From an uncultured Alphaproteobacteria bacterium (GTDB taxonomy: Bacteria > Pseudomonadota > Alphaproteobacteria > Rhodobacterales > Rhodobacteraceae): a stretch of 64,000 nt of DNA. Position numbers and translations under genes: made by a program. The stretch lies in contig CACHMT010000006.1 in assembly GCA_902581005.1 (NCBI GenBank), positions 1-64,000 on the forward strand. The letters run 5' to 3'. Positions 17,871 to 27,965 of the stretch are shown here, piece after piece (position 1 is the stretch's first letter; each line of letters opens with the position of its first letter). The notes under the pieces were generated by a model. The model searched no databases. It saw nothing but the letters and a program-made list of their open reading frames with translations, and was not told the DNA's origin.

Positions 17871-18785
17871 CTACTGTAGTTTTTCATCTTTATGGCTTTT
17901 ATGCTTTAGAATGCCCGAAGCCAAGAATACACCAATGGCAACCAAAAAAATTCCAATCATCTTGATTGCAGGTACAGTCTCTTCTAAAAACATAATTCCC
18001 CCCAGCATTGCAAGTATTGGTGTTAATGCACCGAACGCGCCCATCTCTGATGCTCCAATTAATCGAACCCCATAGTTGAAAAGAATGGTAGCTAAAATAC
18101 CGATTATTAAACTTTGAATAACTATAGTTATGCCTATATCAAATGCAGATACATCATTGAAGTTTACTCTTCCTGTGAGGAGTAATATAGGGGTAATAAA
18201 TAGAGTGCCCCAAAACAAACCTATTACAAGACCGTGAAGGGGAGTAAGCCCACTTTGCCGAAAAATAACTGAATAGACAGCAAATAATCCCGACCCAACA
18301 AGAAAAAGAATATGGCCCCTCCAAACTCCTTCGTCAGAATGAAATAAAATTTGCCATAAGCCAACTAATAGTGCCCCAACCAGTATAACAAACAATCCAG
18401 TTCGACGTATTTGGTCAAACTTTTCGCCTAAAATCAAAAAAGCAGCCAACGCGGTCCAAAAAGGTAGCATACCAGGAGCAAGCACCCCACCATCGGACGC
18501 TGGTGCAAAAGATAGTCCACTTGAAACAATGTATGGGAAAATAGCGCTAGCACCAATCATCAACATTCCAGCTTTAAACCAAGACAGACCTCTGGGGATC
18601 AAATCATATTTGATCATAAAAGGTGCCATGATCAAGGTGCTCGGTACTAATCTCAAAAATAAAACCTCCTCGACTGTAAAGTTAGTGCTTACAGAAAATC
18701 TGGTAGCAACTATAAAAACAGCCCAGATAGAAACTGTCATTAAAGCAACAATAATTCCTAAATATCGATGATCTAAATTAAGCAT
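17871..18785 (-). CDS. EamA/DMT-family transporter
   Basis: A 304-residue protein with ten membrane helices in two EamA repeats. The second repeat ends LTPILAMLGGIMFLEETVPA, the usual end of the DMT family, and the tail is basic (KHKSHKDEKLQ). The family exports amino acids, purines or other metabolites; the substrate cannot be read. It is divergent from the GFA gene at 18900, with a shared 114-base promoter gap. It is one of four EamA proteins in this window, and they look only distantly related. Confidence 0.85.
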   Translation of the reverse strand: MLNLDHRYLGIIVALMTVSIWAVFIVATRFSVSTNFTVEEVLFLRLVPSTLIMAPFMIKYDLIPRGLSWFKAGMLMIGASAIFPYIVSSGLSFAPASDGGVLAPGMLPFWTALAAFLILGEKFDQIRRTGLFVILVGALLVGLWQILFHSDEGVWRGHILFLVGSGLFAVYSVIFRQSGLTPLHGLVIGLFWGTLFITPILLLTGRVNFNDVSAFDIGITIVIQSLIIGILATILFNYGVRLIGASEMGAFGALTPILAMLGGIMFLEETVPAIKMIGIFLVAIGVFLASGILKHKSHKDEKLQ

Positions 18786-19636: not shown

Positions 19637-19706
19637 TTTTAAATATATTGCTAAATTTTTTTAAATAGTCCATTAGTTGGACTGTTTTCAATTTATAGCA
19701 TCAATT

Positions 19707-20564
19707 ATGACTACTTCATCAAAAAAAGGAATAATCACTCTGATTATAGCAACATTCTTTCTTGCATTGATGGATGGTATGTCGCGTCATATGGCCGAAC
19801 TTTATGATGTATTAAACATAAATATGTTCCGATTTTGGATAATTGGAAGCTTTGTGATTTTAGTCAGCTTTAGAGGCCGAGGTGTTTTACGGTCAATTTT
19901 AAAGACAAAGCAGCCAGTTGCCCAGGTTTCTAGAGGCCTTTTATTCATTTCGTCTTTATTAATGGCTATCTACTCATATACCCAAGTTGGATTAATAGTA
20001 ACACACGCGCTAATGGCGGTTTTTCCTCTCCTGACAGTGCTGTTGTCTGGGCTATTTTTAGAAGAGAAAATAACAAGAATAAAAATAGTAGCGGTCGGGG
20101 TAGGATTTATAGGAGTAACTATCATTATTAATCCAATAAATCTTGAATTCTCTTTTGTATCTGTCTTGCCTTTGATCTCTGCAGTTACCTTTGCAATTTA
20201 TGCAGTGCTTACAAGAAAGGTAGCTTCTACTGATAATACTGAAACCAGTTTTTTCTGGGTATCTCTAGTCTCCGCAATTGCGATCACCATTCCCAGCCCT
20301 TTATTTTATAAGCCGATACAATTCTCTGATTTATACTTTCTAATTTTGTTATGTACGTTTAGCTTAGTAGGCCACTTTTTGCTTACCAACGCTTATCGCC
20401 ATGCAGAAGCTAGTGTGTTGCAACCATTTTCATATTTTCATCTTTTCTTTGCATCTATAGTAGGAATTATATTTTTCCAGGACCCTCTAACGATCTCAAC
20501 CGTTGCTGGGGGTGGTTTAATTGTTTTTGGTGGGATTTTGATTTCTAGAAAAAGTAAATTGTGA
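19707..20564 (+). CDS. EamA/DMT-family transporter
   Basis: A 285-residue protein from ATG 19707 (MTTSSKKGIITLIIATFF); the track start is a TTG 30 bases earlier, and neither has a clear ribosome site. It has ten membrane helices in two repeats. Repeat 1 ends MAVFPLLTVLLSGLFLEEKI and repeat 2 ends FFQDPLTISTVAGG. The short loops and basic end are normal for small-metabolite exporters. It follows the DUF1330 gene by 70 bases and could be the end of that operon. Confidence 0.82.
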   Translation: MTTSSKKGIITLIIATFFLALMDGMSRHMAELYDVLNINMFRFWIIGSFVILVSFRGRGVLRSILKTKQPVAQVSRGLLFISSLLMAIYSYTQVGLIVTHALMAVFPLLTVLLSGLFLEEKITRIKIVAVGVGFIGVTIIINPINLEFSFVSVLPLISAVTFAIYAVLTRKVASTDNTETSFFWVSLVSAIAITIPSPLFYKPIQFSDLYFLILLCTFSLVGHFLLTNAYRHAEASVLQPFSYFHLFFASIVGIIFFQDPLTISTVAGGGLIVFGGILISRKSKL

Positions 20565-20664: not shown

Positions 20665-21612
20665 ATGGTTATGTGGGATTATAAAGATACAGAACTACCC
20701 TTCAATACAACTGATCGTTCATCTCATATGAAAGATATGGGTGGTGAGGGCTGGGAGTTAGTTTCTGTTTCTCCAAATCCCGAAAGCAGATGTCACGTAT
20801 TCTTTTGGAAACGTCCTCAAAATCTTGATATTGAAAATGGAAAAGATTTGTTGCAACCTAAAGTAAAGAAATCTGAGGATCAAAATGTCCCATTAGAGGC
20901 AGAAAAGGTTTCTACCAACGGCCTTATTTCTTCCCCTATTTATAAATCTAATCGAGAAATATCTATTCATGAATATGAAGAATTTCCTGATCCACAAGTG
21001 GTTATGATTGTTAAGTATCGACCAAAGGATGGATGTTTTGATCAGTTCAGAACTGAACTTTATTCTAGAGAATACCCAAATGTTATTACACGTCACATGG
21101 GCTTCAATAAAAAAAACGAATTTGTTTGTGTAAGTTTTATGGAGAGTATTGATGCTGCTCTCGATTTAGAAGGAGTCGGTACCAGCTGGTTGGACTCTGT
21201 AGATCACCTTTTAATTAAATATCCTAATGGAAGTCGTACCGAGTCTTTTTCTGGACCTGTTTGGGGGTGGTTCCCAAACTATCAAAACTTGAGTAGGTTC
21301 AGTGCCGAGGCGAAAGCGTTCACTGTATTAGTGATAAAGATGAAAGATAGTTTTGTTCAAGAAGTAAAAGATATTGCTCTTCACCCGTCAATGTTACCAA
21401 GCAACCTTTTTTCTTGTGTTGCTCAGTATAAAGATACTGATAACACATATATCTATATAGGGATGGATACGGTAGAAAATAAACAAGACGCCAACACATA
21501 CTATTCTAGTGGTTGTAGTAAACCCATTACTTCTTTAATTGTCCCTGAAAAGTCTTTGGAATTTTTTAGTGACGCTGAGGATTTTGTTTGGGTAAATTCT
21601 AAGTATTTTTAA
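20665..21612 (+). CDS. Unknown protein with DUF4177-like N-terminus
   Basis: A 315-residue soluble protein. Residues 1-55 (MWDYKDTELPF, GGEGWELVSVSPNPES, FFWKRP) resemble the small DUF4177 beta fold. After a linker, about residues 110-210 (VVMIVKYRPKDGCFDQFRTE) and 220-315 (AFTVLVIKMKDSFVQEVKD) look like two ferredoxin-type dimeric-barrel repeats of the ABM or DUF1330 kind, diverged. No catalytic residue stands out. The start could also be ATG 20671. It is the last gene before the polyamine operon, with a 400-base gap following. Confidence 0.55.
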   Translation: MVMWDYKDTELPFNTTDRSSHMKDMGGEGWELVSVSPNPESRCHVFFWKRPQNLDIENGKDLLQPKVKKSEDQNVPLEAEKVSTNGLISSPIYKSNREISIHEYEEFPDPQVVMIVKYRPKDGCFDQFRTELYSREYPNVITRHMGFNKKNEFVCVSFMESIDAALDLEGVGTSWLDSVDHLLIKYPNGSRTESFSGPVWGWFPNYQNLSRFSAEAKAFTVLVIKMKDSFVQEVKDIALHPSMLPSNLFSCVAQYKDTDNTYIYIGMDTVENKQDANTYYSSGCSKPITSLIVPEKSLEFFSDAEDFVWVNSKYF

Positions 21613-21754
21613 CTCAAGAAACGTTTTCATTTTAATTTTAACTTATGAAGATCATTTACATTATCCGTTAAAAATTTTTTGAAAGATTAAGAGTTAAAAA
21701 AATAATTTACGCGGAAGAATTTTTTTATTTCTTTTTTTTAAAAATTTTGTATAC

Positions 21755-22021
21755 ATGCGCTTGCGCACGTGTCTCTAACCCCTGAAAGTTTCAGATAATG
21801 GTTATGCAACGGCGTGAATGTTTTTAATTCGGGGCGGGCTTTGTTCGATGCTTGCTGCATAAAGTCCCATCCGCCTAGTTTTGAGAGGGTTTGCGTTATT
21901 AAATAACGTTGTATGCCATAACCGGTGACATTAACATTGGAGCATTTGACGTTTAAGCCTTTTATCGCGAGCTTTTTCTTTATCGTACGTTGGCCTATGC
22001 CAATCATTAAGGGAGAAAGAA
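21755..22021 (+). ncRNA. Structured 5' leader of polyamine operon
   Basis: This noncoding stretch is richer in GC than its surroundings and full of pairing. GGTTATG (21800-21806) pairs with CATAACC (21917-21923). Inside this, GGCGG (21833-21837) pairs with CCGCC (21871-21875), and CGTTATTAAATAACG (21894-21908) is a perfect hairpin. A smaller CTGAA/TTCAG hairpin precedes it, and TTGGC/GCCAA (21990-22003) forms a hairpin eight bases before the GGGAG ribosome site. The layout suits a riboregulator that controls translation. Alphaproteobacteria are known to carry a long conserved leader, the speF motif, ahead of ornithine decarboxylase genes; membership here is a guess. Bases 21613-21754 before it are AT-rich, with a weak TATACA box and no gene. 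Confidence 0.55.
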
Positions 22022-22474
22022 ATGACGACACAAAATGAAACTAATTTGGCGCGAGCACCATGGGGTCAGCATTTAGTATTAGACTTTAATGGTTGTCCCA
22101 AAGAGTTACTAGAAGATAAAGAAAATATACTGAATTGGAGTAAAGAGCTAGTACATGCTATTGACATGGTAGCTTACGGTGACCCAGTAATTGAGCATTT
22201 CGCCACGCATTCCCATGAGGCCGCAGGCTATACTTTACTTCAGATGATTGAAACTTCCAATATTGCTGCACATTTCGCTGAAAATATCGGACAGGTATAT
22301 ATCGATGTTTTTTCTTGTAAAGCATTTGACGTCGAAGCTGCACTTGGAATTTGTAAAAAATATTTCAAACCTACTCAAGCCAATATACATAATATCGACA
22401 GGGGATTCCATCAGGCAAATCAGGCTCGTGTAAAAAATTTTACCAAGGAGGGACGAAATGCGTGCGCGGCGTAA
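22022..22474 (+). CDS. Divergent SpeD paralogue, putative pyruvoyl-dependent decarboxylase
   Basis: A 150-residue protein of the S-adenosylmethionine decarboxylase (SpeD) fold. Ser79, His84 and Cys99 keep the exact +5 and +20 spacing of the self-cleaving Ser, the processing His and the catalytic Cys of SpeD; the real SpeD in this operon shows the same as Ser78/His83/Cys98. The residue before the pyruvoyl Ser is Thr instead of Glu, and the substrate motif HTWPE is replaced by HFAEN, so binding of S-adenosylmethionine is doubtful. SpeD relatives that decarboxylate ornithine or arginine are known. It leads speE and speD, overlaps speE by 17 bases and has a good GGGAG site behind a structured leader. 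Confidence 0.7.
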   Translation: MTTQNETNLARAPWGQHLVLDFNGCPKELLEDKENILNWSKELVHAIDMVAYGDPVIEHFATHSHEAAGYTLLQMIETSNIAAHFAENIGQVYIDVFSCKAFDVEAALGICKKYFKPTQANIHNIDRGFHQANQARVKNFTKEGRNACAA

Positions 22475-23369
22475 TTTCATAGAAGATGTTGAAAGCATTT
22501 ATACCCTTAAAGGAAGCAAGGCATTTCAGGGTTTTGAAATCAATAGAACCTTATTTGAGGGAAAGAGCGAATATCAAGATATTGCAATTTACGAGAACGA
22601 TACACTTGGTCGTGTGCTAGCCATTGATGGTATAATTCAGATCACAGAATGTGATGAATTCGTTTATCAAGAGATGATGACGCATGTACCCCTTTTTTCA
22701 CATGAAAAACCAGAGCATATTCTAATTATTGGCGGTGGTGATGGTGGGATTTTACGCGAGGTTCTTCGTCATAAAGGCATAAAAAGAGTTGTCATGGCAG
22801 AAATTGATCAGATGGTAATTGATGCCTGTGTGGAATATATACCTAGCGTTAATAATGGAGGTGAAGTTTACCAAGATACTAGAGTGCAACTAATAGTTGG
22901 CGATGCTTTTGCGTATGTGAAAGAAACAGATTTAAAGTTCGATGTGGTTATAATTGACTCAACTGATCCTGTAGGCCCTGGGGAGAAATTATTTAGCCAT
23001 GAATTTTATAAAAACTTAGTTGAAATTCTTAAGGAAAATGCTGTGGTTTCTACCCAAGGAGGTGTGCCGCAATTCCAATCAGGTGAGGTTGGAAGTACTC
23101 TATCTTGCCTTGAGAAGGCAGGATTGAGCGCTAGTTGTTATATCGCTGCGATCCCAACGTATTATGGCGGATACATGACGCTGGGATTTGGAGTTCTCAA
23201 CTCCACTTGGTCACTACCCCTTTTAGAAACAGTTAACAAACGTTTTAAAAGAGCATGTTTTAAAACTAGACATTACAGTCCAGAAATGCATTTGGCATCT
23301 TTTGTTCTTCCTCCCTGGATCCAAGATGACATTAATAAAAGATCCAAGAAAGAAGAGGAGGCAGGATAA
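22458..23369 (+). CDS. speE: Spermidine synthase
   Basis: A 303-residue aminopropyltransferase. The N-terminal beta domain (EYQDIAIYENDTLGRVLAIDGIIQ) is followed by the Rossmann core with ILIIGGGDGGILREVLRH (co-substrate loop), AEIDQMVIDAC, and IDSTDPVGPG, which carries the catalytic Asp. GGDGG and DxTDPxGP are diagnostic. It transfers aminopropyl from decarboxylated S-adenosylmethionine to putrescine. The start overlaps the SpeD paralogue by 17 bases (GGAGGGACG just ahead), and canonical speD follows one base after its stop, so all three are one translation-coupled unit. Confidence 0.93.
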   Translation: MRARRNFIEDVESIYTLKGSKAFQGFEINRTLFEGKSEYQDIAIYENDTLGRVLAIDGIIQITECDEFVYQEMMTHVPLFSHEKPEHILIIGGGDGGILREVLRHKGIKRVVMAEIDQMVIDACVEYIPSVNNGGEVYQDTRVQLIVGDAFAYVKETDLKFDVVIIDSTDPVGPGEKLFSHEFYKNLVEILKENAVVSTQGGVPQFQSGEVGSTLSCLEKAGLSASCYIAAIPTYYGGYMTLGFGVLNSTWSLPLLETVNKRFKRACFKTRHYSPEMHLASFVLPPWIQDDINKRSKKEEEAG

Positions 23370-23370
23370 A

Positions 23371-23778
23371 ATGAACCATCTCGATAGCGATTATTTCGTA
23401 ACATGTTCAAAAACAGGCGATCAATTTGCAGGAAGGCATATACTTGCTGATTTATGGGACGTGGAACGAATGGGTGACTTAGATTTTATAAAAGAAGCAA
23501 TAGAAGAAAGTGCTCGCAAGGCTGGTGCGACCATTCTGCATTCCTACTATCATCCTTTTGGTGAAGAAATGGGCGTAAGCGGTGTAACAGTTTTATCTGA
23601 AAGTCACATAAGTATACATACTTGGCCAGAACGTAATTTTGCTTCACTTGATATTTTCATGTGTGGGAATTGTGATCCACAGGATGCATTGGATTATTTA
23701 AAAAAGATATTGAGCCCATCGTCAGTTAATCAAAGCCTGAACCGTCGAGGAGTGATCCCTGTGATTGCGCAAATGTAA
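23371..23778 (+). CDS. speD: S-adenosylmethionine decarboxylase proenzyme
   Basis: A 135-residue proenzyme from ATG 23371, behind AGGAGGCAGG; the track start at 23302 lies inside speE. VLSESHISIHTWPE holds the Glu77-Ser78 self-cleavage site that makes the pyruvoyl cofactor, His83, and the ribose-binding Glu87. FMCGNCDP holds Cys98. Length fits the prokaryotic class 1B enzyme. It makes decarboxylated S-adenosylmethionine for the SpeE next to it. It is the last gene of the operon; after it, 250 bases of AT-rich noncoding sequence lead into the tRNA-Gln accessory zone. Confidence 0.93.
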   Translation: MNHLDSDYFVTCSKTGDQFAGRHILADLWDVERMGDLDFIKEAIEESARKAGATILHSYYHPFGEEMGVSGVTVLSESHISIHTWPERNFASLDIFMCGNCDPQDALDYLKKILSPSSVNQSLNRRGVIPVIAQM

Positions 23779-23953
23779 GTAAAATTTCAGGTTTGCACCT
23801 CATAATAGGTAAACAATCATTGATCAGATATACATGGGATAGACACTGTAAGATTGGCACATAATAATTGAAATAAATATAAACTTTTTATTAGTATTCA
23901 AATAAATGCCATGCTTCTTATTGTGCATAATTTTCAGGGAAATCACAAAAACT

Positions 23954-23975
23954 GTTGTCAAAAGTGTTGTCAAAA
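23954..23975 (+). repeat. Tandem GTTGTCAAAA boxes, copy 1
   Basis: Two GTTGTCAAAA boxes separated by GT. The same pair recurs at 24442, 27625 and 28631. The flanking text from about 23908 also resembles the block at 28580-28700, so it is part of a longer duplicated cassette. It may be an arm-type integrase site. Confidence 0.7.
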
Positions 23976-24031
23976 AATATCTTTTTAAAATACGACGAAG
24001 AATAAAAAATTACTTTTAATGGAGAATGAAT

Positions 24032-24424
24032 TTGGCTGATCTACCTAATGTCAATATCGAAGAAATAGAAAAATTTAAAGAGATTGCTGGAACTTCAAAA
24101 GATTGTTCAATTATCATGTTGAATCTTAATGAGTACACCGCAGAAGCTGAGTTTCCAAATGGCAAACTTTATAAAGACTACATGGAAATATTGAATATTC
24201 TTCTAGCTGAGGTTGGAGGCAAAGTTTTGTGGCAAACAGAGGCATCAGCTACACTTATCGGCAATCAGAAAATTCATGAAGCTTTAGGGATCTGGTATCC
24301 CAGTCATCAGTCTTTTCTGGATTTGATGACCGCACCATCATCCGAGAAAAACATGAAATTAAGAAGTCTAGCTGTGAAAAAGGCTGACTTACACAAATGT
24401 AGCGATTATACAGCTAAGTTATAA
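24032..24424 (+). CDS. DUF1330-like protein, intact copy
   Basis: A 130-residue protein. LNLNEYTAEAEFPNGKLYKDY, LLAEVGGKVLWQTEASATLIG and GIWYPSHQSFLDLMTAPSSE follow the pattern of longer DUF1330 relatives (small alpha/beta dimeric barrel, function unknown). The track start is ATG 24026, but its broken paralogue at 28708 has ATG exactly where this gene has TTG 24032, with the same TGGAGAAT(A/G)AAT leader, so TTG 24032 is preferred. It is flanked on both sides by the 30-base tandem-box repeat, as if carried as a cassette. Confidence 0.72.
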   Translation: MADLPNVNIEEIEKFKEIAGTSKDCSIIMLNLNEYTAEAEFPNGKLYKDYMEILNILLAEVGGKVLWQTEASATLIGNQKIHEALGIWYPSHQSFLDLMTAPSSEKNMKLRSLAVKKADLHKCSDYTAKL

Positions 24425-24441
24425 AGATTATTACGAAAACT

Positions 24442-24463
24442 GTTGTCAAAAGTGTTGTCAAAA
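24442..24463 (+). repeat. Tandem GTTGTCAAAA boxes, copy 2
   Basis: Same two boxes with GT between, 18 bases after the DUF1330-like stop. About 30 bases around it match copy 1 exactly. Its right flank (ACCAGGC) resembles that of the copy at 27625, not those of copies 1 and 4, so there are two flank types. Confidence 0.7.
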
Positions 24464-24661
24464 AACCAGGCTTAATGAAACAGCTTGAGCACTTTTGAGC
24501 AGACATTTTGCACCTAAAATGAAGTTAAAACAGCAGTGGAAAAATTTTGACGGTTTCAAGGCCATTAACGCTCAAGACGGTAGCTTCTTAAGTCATTAAA
24601 ATTTATTTTGACAACGGCTAACACTCAAGTAAAAGGCAAAGATGATTTTGGAGAGAGATCA

Positions 24662-25597
24662 ATGTCCTCAGAGAAAAAAGGTATACTTTTTATAATAGCT
24701 GGAATGGCTGTTTTTTGTATTCAGGATATAGTTATTAAATCGCTAGCCAATCAGATTTCATTAACTCAGATTTTATTTTTTCGAGCAGCGTTAGGGACTA
24801 TCCTATTAACAAGCCTTTTATGGTTTTCAGGAAAACCTATAAAGTTTGGATCCTCATATCCGTTGGTAGCAATTTTTAGAGGGAGCTCCTTCTTTTTAGG
24901 GTTCACTTTGTTTTATATCTCTATCTCTAAGTTGCCCTTGGCTATAGCTACAAGCTTATTTTTTATCCATCCCATAATCATTACTGTTATCTCGATATTT
25001 TTTCTTAAGATTTCCGTCGGATTTCATAGAATTATTGCCATCATTATAGGTTTTATAGGTACATTATTAATCGTCAAACCCTCATTTAATAATTTCGATT
25101 GGTATATGTTATTTCCGATAGCAACTGCTTTTAGCTACTCTATCGGTATGCTTTTAGCAAAAAAAACAAGTGATAAAGATAATGCCTTTCAACAGTCTTT
25201 TCATATATATTTTGGGGGACTAATTCTAAGTCCCTTTGTAACGGTTTTGGCGATAAATGCTTTCCCAAATATGGATATTGAGCAGTTAGAATTTCTCTAT
25301 CTTACTTGGACAATCAGCGATTTCAACGCCTTATTGGCTCTTTTAATTATTGCGTTTACGGGTACAATCGGCATTTTCTCTCTTGTATATGCCTATAATA
25401 TTGGATCACCTCAGTCGAATGCCCCAACAGAGTATGTACTTCTAGTATATGCGTTGTTAGCAGGTTATTTCATTTTTGGGGAAGTTCCTGATCTTCTATC
25501 GTTTCTTGGAATGGTTTTGATATCTTTAAGCGGAACATACATTTTTGTACGGGAAAGTATAAGAGAGCAGATTGTGGCTGCAGAAAAACAATGGTAG
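24662..25597 (+). CDS. EamA/DMT-family transporter
   Basis: A 311-residue protein from ATG 24662 (GGAGAG a few bases ahead); the track start at 24608 is a TTG without a site. It has ten membrane helices in two repeats, with repeat 1 ending ATSLFFIHPIIITVISIFFL and repeat 2 containing PTEYVLLVYALLAGYFIFGE. The substrate is unknown. It lies inside the tRNA-Gln accessory zone, between tandem-box copy 2 and the decayed tRNA fragment, so it is a candidate cargo gene. Confidence 0.83.
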   Translation: MSSEKKGILFIIAGMAVFCIQDIVIKSLANQISLTQILFFRAALGTILLTSLLWFSGKPIKFGSSYPLVAIFRGSSFFLGFTLFYISISKLPLAIATSLFFIHPIIITVISIFFLKISVGFHRIIAIIIGFIGTLLIVKPSFNNFDWYMLFPIATAFSYSIGMLLAKKTSDKDNAFQQSFHIYFGGLILSPFVTVLAINAFPNMDIEQLEFLYLTWTISDFNALLALLIIAFTGTIGIFSLVYAYNIGSPQSNAPTEYVLLVYALLAGYFIFGEVPDLLSFLGMVLISLSGTYIFVRESIREQIVAAEKQW

Positions 25598-27523: not shown

Positions 27524-27624
27524 TGGATATTGTTATCAGGAGTTATCAGGATTCTCATAACCCTTTAAAATAGTTCTTATCCTTCTCATGCTTCTTATGC
27601 GTTATCAGTAAAATCACGAAAACT

Positions 27625-27646
27625 GTTGTCAAAAGTGTTGTCAAAA
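27625..27646 (+). repeat. Tandem GTTGTCAAAA boxes, copy 3
   Basis: Two boxes with GT between, about 100 bases after att scar B. The same distance separates scar C from its boxes. This fixed spacing to an att core is what one expects of arm-type integrase sites. Confidence 0.75.
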
Positions 27647-27965
27647 CCAGCCAAAATGTGTTTAGGAAAATATTTAAGTCTTTGAAATTGTTATTCACAT
27701 GTTTTGGTCGATCATTTGCTAAGTTTCATCTCTTGATTAAAACAAATCTCGAAATTATAGCTTTTTAAAAATCCGGCTTGTTGTAATAAAGCGCGTTGCT
27801 TTCTCATAACAAGAAAGAAAAACGAAGCTAAACAAACTGCTCAACTCAGAATTTTTAGAATATTGAATTTGTATTTGATGAATTCAAACAGAGTTGACGT
27901 TAGGTTCTTGTTTTTTTTCATATTAGTTCATATTATAAACTTAAGTCAATAGAAAGGATAGGTGG
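27647..27965. other. Noncoding stretch in accessory zone
   Basis: About 320 AT-rich bases with no convincing reading frame. An imperfect hairpin lies at 27777-27813 (CTTGTT...AACAAG outside, AAAGC/GCTTT inside). No promoter or terminator is clear. It separates the tandem boxes from the orphan gene at 27966. Confidence 0.4.

Follow-up and report, generated by a model that had tools for sequence, protein, structure and literature searches.

A predicted pyruvoyl-dependent L-ornithine decarboxylase of the SpeDC family, encoded with speE and speD behind a conserved leader in a genus of marine Rhodobacteraceae

Homologues of the S-adenosylmethionine (SAM) decarboxylase SpeD that act instead on L-ornithine (SpeDC) or L-arginine (SpeDA) were assayed by Li et al. 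in 2023, and the assayed SpeDCs include RWX43081 of Candidatus Electrothrix aarhusiensis and BAJ63311 of Anaerolinea thermophila (PMC10407285). In that paper, SpeDCs are distinguished by Gln, Thr, Phe, and Tyr residues around the pyruvoyl-forming Ser. Fusions of SpeD with SpeDC have been described in Omnitrophica and Desulfotignum (PMC10407285), and a fusion of SpeD with an aminopropyltransferase (SpeD-SpeE) in Pelagibacter (PMC11107197); a SpeD-aminopropyltransferase fusion is also reported in PMC12803844. The protein encoded at 22022-22474 of the window (the whole 64-kb stretch of DNA analysed) shares with the assayed SpeDCs the fold, the Ser/His/Cys triad, the four diagnostic residues, the Thr-Ser site, and the association with spermidine genes. 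Judged by its sequence, it almost certainly belongs to that family of pyruvoyl-dependent L-ornithine decarboxylases (ODCs), as a further member of the group described in 2023. It differs from the assayed proteins in its host, an alphaproteobacterium outside the groups assayed in PMC10407285, and in its cassette, which has the order speDC-speE-speD with a 17-nt overlap between speDC and speE and is preceded by a conserved leader RNA (Table 1).

Table 1. Features of the speDC cassette in the window and of the SpeDC-SpeE fusions in loci L053 and L056.
Feature	Position	Strand	Length	Basis or remark
Conserved U-run just 5' of the leader	21716..21747	+		94% mean identity in the genus
Non-coding operon leader, candidate cis-regulatory RNA	21748..21912	+	~165 nt	conservation, fold, L051
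speDC, predicted pyruvoyl-dependent L-ornithine decarboxylase	22022..22474	+	150 aa	
Predicted pyruvoyl precursor	Ser79 of SpeDC			
Residues predicted to act in processing/catalysis	His84 and Cys99 of SpeDC			
SpeDC diagnostic residues	Gln74, Thr78, Phe85, and Tyr93 of the 22022-22474 protein			
speE, spermidine synthase (polyamine aminopropyltransferase)	22458..23369	+		NF002010, TIGR00417
speD, canonical class 1b S-adenosylmethionine decarboxylase	23371..23778	+		TIGR03330, tree; ESHISIHTWPE
SpeDC-SpeE fusion, L053	5965-7230 of L053		421 aa	
SpeDC-SpeE fusion, L056	5275-6510 of L056		~411 aa	

The open reading frame is a real gene and encodes a SpeD-fold protein. It has a good ribosome-binding site (AGGGAGAAAGAAATG), and its product matched the Pfam family AdoMet_dc (PF02675) with 77 bits (E 1.4e-21), compared with 114 bits for the neighbouring SpeD. 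The AlphaFold model (pLDDT 89.6) was compared with the Thermotoga maritima SpeD TM0655 (1TLU), a canonical class 1b enzyme, and gave a target-normalised TM-score of 0.87. Scavenger-receptor structures, the top matches by sequence, were rejected as artefacts; the genuine matches were to T. maritima SpeD. The pyruvoyl triad, also shared with TM0655, is kept at SpeD spacing (Ser79/His84/Cys99, and Ser78/His83/Cys98 in the neighbouring SpeD), and the sequences confirmed this numbering as given in the initial annotation. Two replacements that it had listed were found as well, namely Thr78 at the position of the SpeD cleavage Glu and HFAEN in place of HTWPE. Both set the protein apart from TM0655. 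SpeDs are recognised by the equivalog model TIGR03330 and by HTWPE with its conserved Pro; the SpeDC protein scored 45.5 bits against the cut-off of 75.65, which the neighbouring SpeD passed with 123.6 bits, and the Pro typical of SAM decarboxylases is missing from it.

The published diagnostic positions were located through alignment to loci L090 and L108, relatives of assayed proteins, and all four residues were present. In the alignment of 39 family members, Gln74, Thr78, Ser79, His84, and Cys99 were invariant (39/39) and Tyr93 was nearly so; with the triad, Gln74, and Thr78 conserved to this degree, the residues are not due to chance. The core LQMIETSN(I/V)AAHFAENIGQ(V/A)YID(V/I)FSCKAF occurs in every orthologue of the genus. 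The Thr-Ser cleavage site, initially thought unusual, turned out to be the norm of the family, since Thr78 is invariant and the protein carries the SpeDC diagnostics and falls within the SpeDC clade. In a scan of named genomes, a protein of Candidatus Electrothrix aarhusensis (L090 3856-4275) was 50% identical to the SpeDC protein and a homologue named Anaerolinea thermophila was 42% identical; both read VQLIETS.ITGHF.......AY.DIFSCK, where the SpeDC protein has LQMIETSNIAAHFAENIGQVYIDVFSCK. Downstream of the Electrothrix gene lie nspC, whose carboxynorspermidine decarboxylase product scores over its cut-off, and a gene for a homologue of carboxynorspermidine synthase that stays below its own. 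The same gene order was published for the assayed ODC RWX43081 (PMC10407285), with which L090 was matched through organism and gene order, not accession.

In the tree of 97 proteins, the SpeDC protein grouped with the Electrothrix, Anaerolinea, and phage homologues in a clade, also taking in phage outliers, that was split from all canonical SpeDs by a long branch with support of 99/99, and the neighbouring SpeD fell among the bona fide SpeDs. Several long branches (phiN3, L115, and phages) are themselves unsurely placed, which does not affect the placement of the SpeDC protein. A recent duplication of speD within the genome was rejected, as the constraint of SpeDC and the neighbouring SpeD to one clade gave a p-AU of 8e-55. 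The separate clade and this rejection together indicate that the SpeDC lineage is old and distinct, and that the gene did not arise by local copying of the adjacent speD. Thus, the family tree suggested as a check in the initial annotation did place the protein apart from canonical SpeDs, and the term paralogue used there does not hold in the sense of an in-house copy. Clade membership is no proof of substrate, because an arginine decarboxylase of phage HTVC201P was placed within the SpeDC clade (PMC10407285), and Sinorhizobium phage phiN3, with a reported SAM decarboxylase, fell in or near the clade in our tree. The HTVC201P enzyme reads HSW and QLDVYTC and lacks the SpeDC Phe and Tyr; phiN3 keeps Gln, Phe, and Tyr and has Asp for Thr.

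The speE product passed NF002010 (318 bits, cut-off 260) and TIGR00417 (282 bits, cut-off 250). A Shine-Dalgarno sequence, AAGGAGG, lies ahead of its ATG at 22458, and speD begins 1 nt past its end. Essentially the same three-gene geometry was observed in all 13 loci of the genus that were fetched. The unfused order speDC-speE-speD was also found in many gammaproteobacterial metagenome-assembled genomes (MAGs) and in Micavibrio UBA1672 (L051), and many SpeDC homologues in the fetched loci have no speD or speE nearby. Stand-alone SpeDC homologues of about 50% identity adjoin a hemB-like gene (porphobilinogen synthase, by sequence) in L021 and L022, and neither speE nor speD turned up in the related loci L077, L078, L083, and L085. 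Two contigs titled Klebsiella pneumoniae (L061 and L069) carry the cassette typical of the gammaproteobacterial MAGs and are probably mislabelled metagenome bins. In Microcystis phage MaAM05 (L037 2010-4788), genes for a predicted agmatinase and two SpeD homologues are grouped with speE; the second SpeD homologue (speH_1, IAESHITFHSF) could be a candidate arginine decarboxylase.

Taken as a whole, it is very probable that SpeDC is a pyruvoyl-dependent ODC at the head of a three-gene route to spermidine, borne on a transferred cassette under the control of its leader. The proenzyme would cut itself between Thr78 and Ser79, and Ser79 would become the pyruvoyl group, to which ornithine would be bound through its alpha-amino group as a Schiff base; release of CO2 would then give putrescine. 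HFAEN takes the place of HTWPE, the adenosyl/ribose-binding segment of the pocket, with Gln74, Thr78, Phe85, and Tyr93 as the probable marks of the ornithine-specific form. The SpeD encoded two genes further on would make decarboxylated SAM, and SpeE would combine it with putrescine. Three translationally coupled genes would thus lead from ornithine and SAM to spermidine with no PLP-dependent decarboxylase. The cassette seems to have spread by horizontal transfer and may have been acquired as a unit, and the conserved 5' leader RNA may control it both in the genus and in the Micavibrio relative.

The polyamine gene content of the genus was evaluated in 22 genomes. SpeDC and SpeD were both present in 14, both missing in 8, and found singly in none; from the summed incompleteness of the genomes, about 5.5 misses would be expected, and gaps in the assemblies may therefore account for the eight absences. 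The source assembly (G000) is 72.7% complete, and absences are therefore stated for the genus as a whole. The sole PF02784 protein of each genome adjoins argH (by sequence) in the four loci examined, and the two proteins that were typed are diaminopimelate decarboxylase LysA (TIGR01048, 458 bits); the exceptions are G000 and G017, which have none, and G006, in which two neighbouring pieces match. At least two PF02784 proteins were counted in 63 of 80 other Rhodobacteraceae genomes. Across the genomes of the genus, no PLP-dependent ornithine or arginine decarboxylase was detected (the PF02784 member is LysA where typed), nor was an OKR decarboxylase over cut-off, PvlArgDC, or agmatine deiminase. 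The proposed search for speC, speF, speA, and agmatine genes accordingly returned neither a PLP-dependent decarboxylase of ornithine or arginine nor an agmatine deiminase. The three-gene path from ornithine to spermidine suggested in the initial annotation gains support from the operon and from this absence. The SpeDC family of cofactor-free ODCs is now placed in a marine, small-genome genus of Rhodobacteraceae that apparently has no PLP-dependent ODC.

Ureohydrolases occur in most genomes of the genus. In two of them an agmatinase-family protein above the TIGR01230 cut-off was typed, and homologues of the first were found in most genomes; the 270-aa protein scores 189.7 bits (cut-off 174.3). 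Of the separate ornithine or arginine route that had been expected to weaken the proposal, the decarboxylases were thus not detected in the genus, and an agmatinase-like protein is present in most genomes. As a consequence, gene content alone leaves room for an arginine route, in which the protein would be a SpeDA, a pyruvoyl-dependent L-arginine decarboxylase yielding agmatine, and the agmatinase-like protein would act as its partner in forming putrescine. The phage arginine decarboxylase within the SpeDC clade, and the phage protein UCP01, which takes both ornithine and arginine, also speak for such a route. We nevertheless regard it as improbable, because all four ODC-diagnostic residues are present, two of which are missing from the assayed HTVC201P enzyme, and because its nearest relative among the assayed proteins is an ODC. 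Furthermore, no such agmatinase-like gene was detected in the incomplete G000 assembly, where the only PF00491 match (119 bits) is under the agmatinase cut-off. SpeDAs are recognised as close to SpeD, lacking the four ODC residues, and usually accompanied by speB or aguAB; here, the ODC residues are present and agmatine deiminase is absent. Gene content favours ornithine over arginine, and the residues carry the distinction. Of the two products named initially, putrescine or agmatine, putrescine is supported by the four residues, the clade, the operon, the fusions, and the lack of other ODC or arginine decarboxylase genes, and agmatine is less likely.

In trypanosomatids, AdoMetDC forms heterodimers with a prozyme. 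By this precedent, the protein could be an inactive, regulatory subunit that binds and stimulates the neighbouring SpeD; one operon does make two SpeD-fold proteins, and PDB 5tvm was among the matches of the fold search. This is very unlikely, as Ser79, His84, and Cys99 show no variation among 39 homologues although an inactive subunit could dispense with them, many homologues have no speD or speE nearby, and the genus would be left with no source of putrescine. That the protein is a further SAM decarboxylase whose pocket has changed, although suggested by the common fold and Pfam family and by phiN3, which lies near the clade with three of the four diagnostic residues, is scarcely credible, because HTWPE is lost together with a Pro completely conserved in SAM decarboxylases, Thr is present, and such an enzyme would be redundant beside the canonical SpeD two genes away in the cassette-bearing genomes of the genus. 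Annotation pipelines would label speDC as exactly this.

In two related alphaproteobacterial MAGs of another family (L053 and L056), SpeDC and SpeE are joined in one polypeptide (Table 1). The SpeE portion of the fusions passes TIGR00417 and NF002010, and both genomes also encode, close by, SpeD as a protein of its own and another SpeE. The published SpeD-SpeDC and SpeD-SpeE fusions likewise join pathway steps in one chain, whereas those of L053 and L056 pair SpeDC, the predicted putrescine maker, with SpeE, and so physically connect it with the putrescine user. A SpeDC-SpeE fusion was not found in the literature searched, and it goes beyond the published SpeDC family.

The leader RNA also goes beyond that family. 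Its mean pairwise identity across 13 species of the genus is 94% (21748-21905), compared with 73% at the third codon positions of SpeDC and 59% in the upstream flank. A TATACAT box stands at about 21750, after the U-run; the two probably form the promoter and transcription start region, as judged from the sequence, and a scan for consensus promoters reported no significant promoter. A protein-coding leader was rejected, since every forward frame contains stops and the one open reverse frame is broken in several species. The leader occurs once in the G000 genome. It is also carried by the Micavibrio cassette (L051 5664-5828; 97 bits, E 5e-23), with a model that includes the L051 sequence; independently of the model, blastn gave 80% identity over 121 nt. 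The genes flanking the L051 cassette differ from those in the genus. With stricter filters, the leader had no matches in 384 other genomes of the class, nor was it detected in the fetched SpeDC loci outside the genus and L051, and there was no Rfam match. A plausible fold consists of a short 5' stem domain and a long bulged stem-loop of about 100 nt, with z-scores of -2.0 (whole leader) and -2.9 (3' domain); the z-scores of the remaining single foldings were less pronounced, from -0.7 to -2.2. Pairing was kept in 96.6% of cells with one-sided changes only and no double-sided ones, no better than in shuffles; the sequences are too alike to give the fold covariation support.

The layout resembles that of the described speF leader, in which a long bulged stem-loop comes after a conserved 5' stem (PMC1273637). 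Like the speDC leader, the speF leader (RF00518) and ar45 (RF02347) lie upstream of ODC genes, in their case alphaproteobacterial PLP-dependent ODCs, and Rfam detected RF00518 in rhizobial odc2 loci. The speF and speDC leaders have the strings CGCACGUG and GCAACG in common, both short. Homology with speF/ar45 was not supported: the RF00518 and RF02347 covariance models gave no match at E<=10 in the 64-kb window or L051, the leader model R1 gave no reciprocal match to the rhizobial odc2 leaders, Smith-Waterman shuffles gave p 0.03-0.75, and nhmmer block models also failed or were marginal. The speDC leader may correspond to the speF leader, either diverged from it or analogous to it, and have been taken over by a non-homologous ODC. 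Tentatively, it may represent a cis-regulatory RNA of a new class that is dedicated to the pyruvoyl ODC cassette and travels with it between distant alphaproteobacteria; such an RNA would be a riboswitch or attenuator responding to ornithine, a polyamine, or SAM. Its conservation makes it a concrete new RNA candidate for polyamine or ornithine sensing.

Around the cassette, three EamA-family transporters are encoded within 8 kb (17871-18785, 19677-20564, and 24608-25597). The 315-aa open reading frame at 20665-21612 has no Pfam match, and its resemblance to the N-terminal Sp36 family is weak and falls below the cut-off. A 29-bp direct repeat (AAAACTGTTGTCAAAAGTGTTGTCAAAAA) is present at 23948-23976, 24436-24464, and 27619-27647, two copies being exact and one having a mismatch. 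The first two copies flank an open reading frame (24026-24424) with no Pfam match, and the repeat is present in only a few loci of the genus.
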